This document shows, in pieces, positions 11,509-52,049 of a stretch of 64,000 bases of DNA. Positions within the stretch are counted from its first letter, which is position 1, and every line of letters begins with the position of its first letter. Location: contig OZ025871.1 in NCBI GenBank assembly GCA_964019415.1, forward strand, positions 5,220,713 through 5,284,712. Reading direction: 5' to 3'. The DNA comes from Ianthella basta (Eukaryota > Porifera > Demospongiae > Verongiida > Ianthellidae). A model generated the notes under the pieces. The model was not told where the DNA came from. It saw only the letters and a list, made by a program, of their open reading frames with translations, and did no database searches. The translations under genes and the position numbers were made by a program.

Positions 11509-14500
11509 CTTCCTATCACGAGTTGGAGAGTTTCAGGTACTGAGTGAAATCTGTGTAGCCACGTTAAGAGACGGCAAGAAATCCCAATTTAAGTCCTTCT
11601 TAGAATTGCCAACTGTGCACAGATCACGATCACTGAGGTGAGTATTTTGTTAATACCGTACATAGCTAGCTAGCTAGCCAGGTAAATCGACCCTTCAATC
11701 CTAGAGTGAACTGCCCGTTATTGAAGAGTACCGGCTCTAGTCCCACTCCACTCTGGTGACATCCCTGCCACTCATGGTTGAATTGTGTGATTCCTCACTT
11801 TCTTCATTACCTGCCCGTCGCCAGTGTGTTTGCAGTGTACGAGACAGCAGTAGCTAGCTAGCTACCTAATATAGCTAGCTAGTTAGCCAGTTAGCTAGAT
11901 GGCTTTAATCGACTGAATTCAGTAAAGACTGAGCAGAATGGTGTGTGATGTGCAATCATAGATCCCCCAGTGAGTTGCTAAACCCTGTAATGGAGGATCT
12001 ATGGCACTACGTACGTATTTCAGATGGCTTTCAAAAGGCAAATGATGTGACGTCACTATCTTAATCAATGTTGCTTCTCTTTGCTTCATGTCTATTGCCA
12101 TGTAGGTAGGTATTGCATTTTGCTATCTTTGCCACTGTAGTCACACCCTTATTGTGTTCCATTGATAGCTGGCATGAAAGGGGAACTAGCAAGCTAACTG
12201 AAGTGAGGGCTTCTCAGCTGGCTCAGGCATCAGAAAGGGTTGGTTCTCTAATACCAGCTTCACAACAGGGTTGAAAACCTTGCCGACGTTTCGACCAGAT
12301 GCTCTGGTCTTCTTCAGGGCGAAGAAAAACGTACGTAGTACCATAGATCTTCACCCTGAAGAAGACCAGAGCATCTGGTCGAAACGTCGGCAAGGTTTTC
12401 AACCCTGTTGTGAAGCTGGTATTAGAGAACCAACCCTTTCAGCAAGCTAACTATTTGTGTATAATGAGAGATGCACTATGACAAATACCTTCTAAAAGGT
12501 TGCCAGAGATTGATTGCTATTACTAAGTGATGGAGTTCATACTCTATCCCAATCAATAAAGCCTGCAATCACCCTGGACTACCTGAGCCCTGTCACGATT
12601 GTGTCAAGTGTCTCAGCTAGACTTCAGTCCAGTCAATACTTGCTACCAGTAGATCCACACTGGTGTACTGTTCCCACTCTTACTGTCTGTGCCCTGTACG
12701 TAAGGGCTGGTTAATTGCTGCCAGTTAAGGGATGGTGCACAAATGAACAGCTAATAGAAATAGACTTGGCCCATGTGGATGTTGATCAGGTTGACTAAGG
12801 TTGGGTGTAATGTATTGAATGGGTAACTATGGGTATCCAGTTGATCACTTTTCTTTCTGTGCAGGTGTCATGCCTATTTCAAATGAGCAGTGGCGTGTGG
12901 CTGTAGGACTGTGGGTTGCCCACATCCAGCGGACACTCGTCATCAGGAGAGGAGTGAAGCGAGCACAGTCCAGTCAGGAAGGTGCATCTTCTCCGTCAGG
13001 TCAATCACACAGTGGGGAAAAGAAGTCCATGCTAAAGAGGAAAGGGAGAAAGAAGCACAAAGAAGACTCTTTGAGCAATCAGGTTACCACAGCTGATGAC
13101 TTGTACAGTGGCTTGTGTGATCTTACACAAAACAGCAAGTGCAGAGACAGCACAGACAGGAGTCGGTTAAGCCCTTTGCTGGAGCTGTTAGAGTGCACCA
13201 AATGGACTTCACTTCTTGTTGTCATAATGATCCTCCTATTCCTAAGTGGTGACATTGAAACTAATCCTGGTCCCATGGAGAGAGGTAGGTAGTTGTTGTT
13301 AAATGGACAGTTTACACAGCTCACAAAGCACTTATTGTGTCCTAGTACAGGTCATGTCAGCACTCACTGGTTGTGCTGCTTGTTTGACTATAATCTTGGG
13401 CAGGAGTAGCTGCTAGTTACTGATGTGAGATATGTATGGAGATTCGGTTACTGCTAATGGACAGTTTACACAAGTCATGAGGCACTTATTGTGCAGCACT
13501 AGTACAGGTCACGTTAGCAGTCACTGTTTGTGCTGCTTGCTTGACTGTAATGTTGGCTGGAGTCCAGACTAGCTGTTAGTTAGTGCTTTGTGACATTGAG
13601 TTTTGGAGCTGCTGAGGATGACAGGGGTGAGGACTGTGTTTGTCATCTTTTATATGTGCTTTGGCATACTCTCACATAGAGGTGAGAATAGCAGAAGATG
13701 GGTCCTAGCTACTAATTGAAGTATGTCAATTGCGGGCATGTGGTACTGTATGCCTATAGATGACAGCTAAGCAGCTAATTCAGTAACAGTGAATCAGTCT
13801 AAGGTGACTAGACCGTACTGAGCATATTAACATGAGTCTGTTGAAAGCATTGAAAGTTAATACTGTATCTCCCTCTCCCCTCCCACTATGGGGTGTGACC
13901 AGTGTCATCACAATGTGCTTAAACATACTAGTTACAATGCATATGTGTGAACCGTCCCACAGAACATGCCGTACATCAGGCAGATGTCCTGCTGTTGATT
14001 TTCTGTGTATCCTTTGAAGCATTCTATGAAGTAGTAGGGAAGTATATAAGGAAGAGAAAGTTTGCTACCTGTTGGTGCCAAAACCGGAACAATTATCCGA
14101 CACTCTAACACACTGAGTTTCGGCTGCCCAAACTGACTGATCCAGCGGTGACAATTCACTCTCCCTCGCCATATATTGGCTAGTTTAGAATGATGGAATG
14201 GTTCCACTAACCTTGCATATGAGCAATTCACTGATGCTACTTAGAAACCACTTACAATGGAACACTGTTAAGGTTCCAACCTGACTGGCAGGTTGCTGAC
14301 TGCAGCCACTTCAACAACCTAGTATAGTCTCCTATGTCTTGGTATGTAAGATTGGTGAGTTGGTTATGTTAAAGACAATCTAATGAAAATGATGGCTCGA
14401 AAGAAAGACAAACAGGGAAGGAAGATTTGCTACCAGCCAGCATTGAACCCAGGATAGCCTACACTCTAACGCGGTGTTTCAGTCAACCCTATTTTGTAGG

Positions 14501-52049: not shown

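Follow-up and report, generated by a model that had tools for sequence, protein, structure and literature searches.

The stretch of the Ianthella basta genome analysed here (64,000 nucleotides, C4:5220713-5284712 in a genome of 209 Mb and 96 contigs, hereafter the window) holds what looks like an intact animal NLR immune-receptor gene, one of a very large family arranged in tandem. We consider it probable that this is one gene whose mRNA would encode a 1767-residue product, predicted to be divided into two products by a 2A sequence and carrying death-fold domains at both ends. Fifteen coding exons on the + strand (12870-52049) join with all junctions phase-compatible and without internal stop, giving a spliced model of 5304 bases including the stop codon. 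The order is a leader with the 2A sequence, Death, CARD, a small exon, NACHT, six small exons, a SIM-like exon, a Gln-rich exon, a 75-base exon and the last exon. An initial annotation of the same DNA had placed the ATG at 12870 and the stop at 52049 with in-frame joining throughout, which is borne out by the 15-exon chain; its 18 exons and 1826 residues were not reproduced, and the LRR-like part, with the weakest exon calls, is the probable site of the discrepancy.

The coding part of exon 1 (12870..13284) starts at an ATG that lies 5 bases downstream of a splice acceptor, and encodes a 134-residue leader that includes the 2A string SGDIETNPG/P, and then PMERG. The in-frame SGDIETNPGP matches the 2A/StopGo motif D(V/I)ExNPGP and puts the break between Gly134 and Pro135; hydrophobicity peaks at about residues 112-125, in a stretch that ends 9 residues (SGDIETNPG) ahead of that break. 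Motif, position and hydrophobic stretch are thus present as initially annotated. The proposed uncoupling of a hydrophobic leader from the receptor needs refining, as the predicted product is 134 residues long and hydrophobic near its C-terminus i.e. it is not a removed N-terminal signal peptide. The ribosome would skip the bond between Gly134 and Pro135, yielding a basic leader and a 1633-residue receptor that would be cytosolic and begin with proline. The ribosome exit tunnel conceals some 30-40 residues, and the hydrophobic stretch should therefore sit inside it when skipping is decided. As far as the sequence allows us to infer, the leader, once freed, would be similar to a tail-anchored protein and the unskipped chain would be internally anchored: were skipping to fail, the hydrophobic stretch would remain internal as an anchor, with the receptor either held at a membrane or entering the secretory route.

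Behind the leader, exon 2 (15016..15369) encodes a Death domain (PF00531, 1.5e-7, above cut-off; PIDD-like in the PDB, 3.9e-4) and exon 5 (28288..29941) a NACHT domain with a following helical part (PF05729, 1.6e-18, 67.5 bits against a Pfam cut-off of 26.7; NLRP3, 4.8e-8 over 361 residues), so that both an N-terminal death-fold effector and the NACHT expected of an NLR were confirmed by profile search. For the N-terminal CARD in exon 3 (23715..24041) the annotation stands in part: it matched PF00619, but at 0.0036, which is below the cut-off, while a 57% identical relative scored above it (27.0 vs 23.9). Exon 4 (24534..24598), a small phase-restoring linker, separates this CARD from the NACHT. 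The LRR-like part comprises exons 7 (40830..41040), 8 (41578..41708), 9 (44154..44246) and 10 (46539..46758), where it ends; it had no Pfam match and no relevant PDB match, so that the LRR-like label of the initial annotation reduces to a pattern. It is flanked by two short exons, namely exon 6 (31713..31840), which resembles exon 8, and exon 11 (47395..47480), for which an alternative start at 47431 is possible.

The 3' end of the gene contains the annotated Gln-rich/SIM region and C-terminal CARD. Exon 12 (49091..49570) is acidic and contains the SIM-like string VVIDLSDDS, recognised by eye, and exon 13 (49957..50728) is Gln-rich; they are followed by the 75-base exon 14 (50990..51064), whose frame is fixed by phase only, and by exon 15 (51757..52049), which includes the stop codon. 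An AlphaFold2 model of exon 15 (pLDDT 93.6) has the six-helix CARD fold and its best structural matches are CARDs, with the CARD8 CARD as the top Foldseek match; by predicted fold, the last exon is a CARD, and its acceptor is TTCAG in all ten listed copies, the window's copy counted. NLRP1 also has a death-fold domain at either end. The present gene resembles NLRP1 in this respect and CARD8 in its CARD, but differs from them in its SIM/Gln-rich linker and in the 2A in front. The FIIND that precedes the C-terminal CARD of NLRP1 was not listed in exon-by-exon Pfam scans, from which a domain split across exons could escape.

The gene sits in a same-strand tandem array of more than 4 Mb (C4 3.97-8.34 Mb). 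Exon searches of the genome found the 2A exon in 109 places, the last exon in 91, the Gln-rich exon in 89, the SIM exon in 39 and a second 2A type in 33, with at least 150 places each for the Death, CARD and LRR-like exons. Within the array we kept 284 exon copies, all on the + strand (36 2A, 11 second-type 2A, 4 Death, 36 CARD, 117 LRR-like, 31 SIM, 33 Gln-rich and 16 last exons), leaving aside other contigs, the remainder of C4, distant and weaker matches, short fragments of the tail, and the second piece wherever a copy was split. The exon types follow the order 2A, (Death), CARD, LRR-like, SIM, Gln-rich, (C-terminal CARD). Neighbour counts exceeded the means of 2000 label shuffles for 2A-CARD (22 vs 4.6), CARD-LRR (31 vs 14.8), LRR-SIM (27 vs 12.7), SIM-Gln-rich (24 vs 3.6) and Gln-rich-last (14 vs 1.8), and none of the shuffles equalled any of these counts. 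There are exceptions to the order: the 2A exon is followed directly by an LRR-like exon in 6/36 cases and by another 2A exon in 4/36, and a Death exon follows it in only 4/36, the window's included. The nearest exon upstream of the 2A exon is LRR-like in 13/36, which indicates that some units lack the SIM-Gln-rich end.

The same data bear on an alternative, which we regard as unlikely, in which two adjacent genes were duplicated as a pair i.e. a 2A-Death-CARD-NACHT-LRR receptor and a downstream SIM-Gln-rich-CARD gene. Four of the 31 SIM copies are preceded by another SIM with no LRR-like exon in between, and the Gln-rich-CARD end also occurs behind another start, in the compact 2A-Death units described below, as two genes would predict. 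However, the nearest exon upstream of SIM is LRR-like in the other 27, SIM never adjoins 2A or CARD (the pairs 2A-SIM, 2A-Gln-rich, CARD-SIM and CARD-Gln-rich each occur 0 times in the array) and the Gln-rich exon comes directly after SIM in 24/33. In the window itself, the chain stays in phase across positions 44-50 kb, and NPGP occurs just twice on the + strand, in the two 2A exons, so there is no 2A start ahead of SIM.

Single-gene organisation can also be judged against a paralogue 2.8 Mb away (C4:8001735-8060000), which aligns, albeit with gaps and certain blocks repeated, along window 11311-53297. All 15 exons have lengths equal modulo 3 (13 the same, one +3, one -9), the frame being kept in exon 6 and exons 4, 12 and 13 also being retained, and the paralogue keeps 14/14 GT donors and 13/14 AG acceptors. 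Three limits apply to the single chain as modelled. The sole acceptor not conserved in the paralogue is 46539; phase fit was part of the selection criterion for the exons at 24534, 31713, 46539 and 47395 and for the 75-base exon, and phase coherence is therefore not independent support for those five; and the 75-base exon has two open frames, between which substitutions do not decide.

Comparison with the paralogue gave dN/dS values, resting on few changes, of 0.23 in NACHT, 0.72-0.88 across exons 6-8, 1.06 in exon 10 and 0.58-0.66 over the last four exons. Across multiple copies the values were 0.54 for the Gln-rich exon (n=10), 0.56 for SIM (n=7) and 0.64 for the last exon (n=11, one from C3). 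This pattern fits a receptor in which the motor is conserved and the sensing part may be changing fast. Repeated blocks at window 33727-44762, in the LRR-like region, are present in a different number in the paralogue, which suggests that exon modules have been gained and lost. The NACHT exon of the paralogue is interrupted by a single in-frame stop, and the paralogue may therefore be dead. This stop, together with stops in several copies of the 2A exon and the broken or incomplete state of 6/6 compact units examined, is what would be expected if the window held a decaying and perhaps unexpressed copy in an array rich in broken units. We consider this improbable for the present gene, whose 15 modelled exons have no stop or frame break and whose NACHT has the low dN/dS given above. 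A protein search returned 14 NACHT exons, counting the one in the window, at ≥87% identity over ≥95% of the query, and in a NACHT family search of the genome all 102 places scored, out of 469 candidates, were above cut-off.

The D(V/I/M)ExNPGP pattern has 360 matches in the genome (209 Mb) compared with 0 for a reversed control. It was kept in 33/35 database relatives of the 2A exon (identity to the query exon mostly 51-60%), and was visible in 9/10 loci read in the + frames, with none in the tenth. A second 2A cluster lies at C2 1.1-3.9 Mb (54 motifs of two codon types, partly with Death and LRR-like exon matches); here 23/26 2A-exon matches hold the motif, the remaining 3 being fragments. 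For the leader, dN/dS was 0.38 against a distant copy that has NPDP, and 0.16, 0.17, 0.37 and 0.56 against close copies, with one further copy identical and four close copies left out because the anchor string missed them. These values make protein-level constraint on the leader probable.

Might the 2A string be no more than a retrotransposon remnant or a simple hydrophobic signal, without skipping in this gene? Non-LTR retrotransposons contain 2A-like sequences (PMC11512398), the pattern is, among the matches listed, also scattered outside both arrays, and the NPDP of one relative departs from the motif. The conservation in the 33 database relatives and in the C2 cluster argues the other way, and we judge this explanation very unlikely. 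The sponge motif shares D(V/I)ExNPGP with viral and retrotransposon 2A/StopGo sequences (PMC12846837, PMC11512398) but differs in lying in an exon of a cellular receptor, with activity that is predicted; NLRs are named among cellular 2A carriers (PMC11512398). One database relative of the 2A exon (P0137) is filed under an alphaproteobacterial metagenome-assembled genome, where it is probably animal sequence that was binned with bacteria.

The second 2A type marks compact units, of which we examined six of eleven, namely the one at window 3.5-5.5 kb and those at five other loci. These lack NACHT and fit 2A, a Death-like exon and, in part, the Gln-rich, 75-base and last exons into about 5 kb. 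One copy has phases, worked out by hand, that are compatible with a 2A-Death-Gln-rich-CARD protein, but each of the six is defective, whether through a stop, an altered motif, a broken frame or the loss of an exon. The unit in the window (3534-5492, + strand) is a broken copy: a stop comes right after its 2A motif, and the Gln-rich and last exons, present in close copies, are missing. At nine other Gln-rich loci the upstream exon is SIM in 7 and a compact Death exon in 2, hence the Gln-rich end is common to both kinds of unit. The compact units are thus at most candidate adaptors. A wider reading, which we put forward tentatively and think unlikely, is that the array forms a 2A-run immune system of two products, in which every receptor mRNA would yield a conserved, membrane-seeking leader of 134 residues and a cytosolic receptor, skipping would set their ratio, and receptor and small adaptor-like genes would share the Gln-rich CARD by exon exchange.

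Several other features were seen in and around the array. The intron between Death and CARD contains a reverse transcriptase/RNase H fragment (18412-18798, - strand; RT_RNaseH_2, 1.2e-13), and long intronic TG repeats (16276-16575 and 39764-39979) produce false open frames. Contig C51 (58 kb) seems to duplicate part of the array region. Elsewhere on C4, the locus at C4:12303501-12313500 has an open frame (2218-2772) with a Death-exon-like start and a 2A-exon-like end, as if two exons had recombined.

The claim that a 2A at the N-terminus of an NLR is known among invertebrates agrees with the sea urchin, where 85/241 NLRs have 2A-like sequences that, in reporter tests, skip and serve as signal sequences (Roulston et al. 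2016, PMC4981915). The sponge gene resembles these SpNLR2A proteins in having a 2A in the N-terminal region of the same modelled chain as the NACHT, a Death-NACHT core (followed here by an LRR-like part), a hydrophobic stretch ahead of the motif and a large family. The analysed sea-urchin 2As, however, are about 26 residues long at the very N-terminus, whereas the break here follows residue 134 and a basic stretch comes first, and the sponge gene adds a CARD behind Death and a C-terminal CARD. Invertebrates are given only NLRC and NLRD in PMC11508797, in which some NLRPs end FIIND-CARD, and the accessible part of PMC12909245 counts sponge NLRs with no mention of 2A there. Those NLRC and NLRD proteins have a CARD-NACHT-LRR or Death-NACHT-LRR core; the gene shares with them the CARD or Death with NACHT, here followed by an LRR-like part, and strong expansion, but it pairs Death with CARD, with 2A ahead and a CARD behind. 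Our literature search, outside which most subscription papers and preprints fell, found no paper on 2A-led sponge NLRs and none reporting a single NLR that joins a 2A leader of 134 residues to Death with CARD and to a further CARD at the C-terminus. The view that the combination of 2A, Death plus CARD, Gln-rich/SIM region and C-terminal CARD is unusual thus holds against the literature searched.

In the single receptor that we favour, sensing would occur via the fast-changing LRR-like part and assembly via NACHT, with signalling through the front Death and CARD and through the rear CARD on its long SIM/Gln-rich tether. If expression follows the model, innate immune receptors outside the sea urchin lineage would have translational skipping as a standing layer of control, with dozens of natural variants available within one genome. 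This opens the questions of what role an unskipped, membrane-bound form would have and why a receptor should have death-fold domains at both ends. We also suggest that 40 kb genes with many small exons may partly explain why automatic annotation of some sponges contains few CARD-type NLRs.
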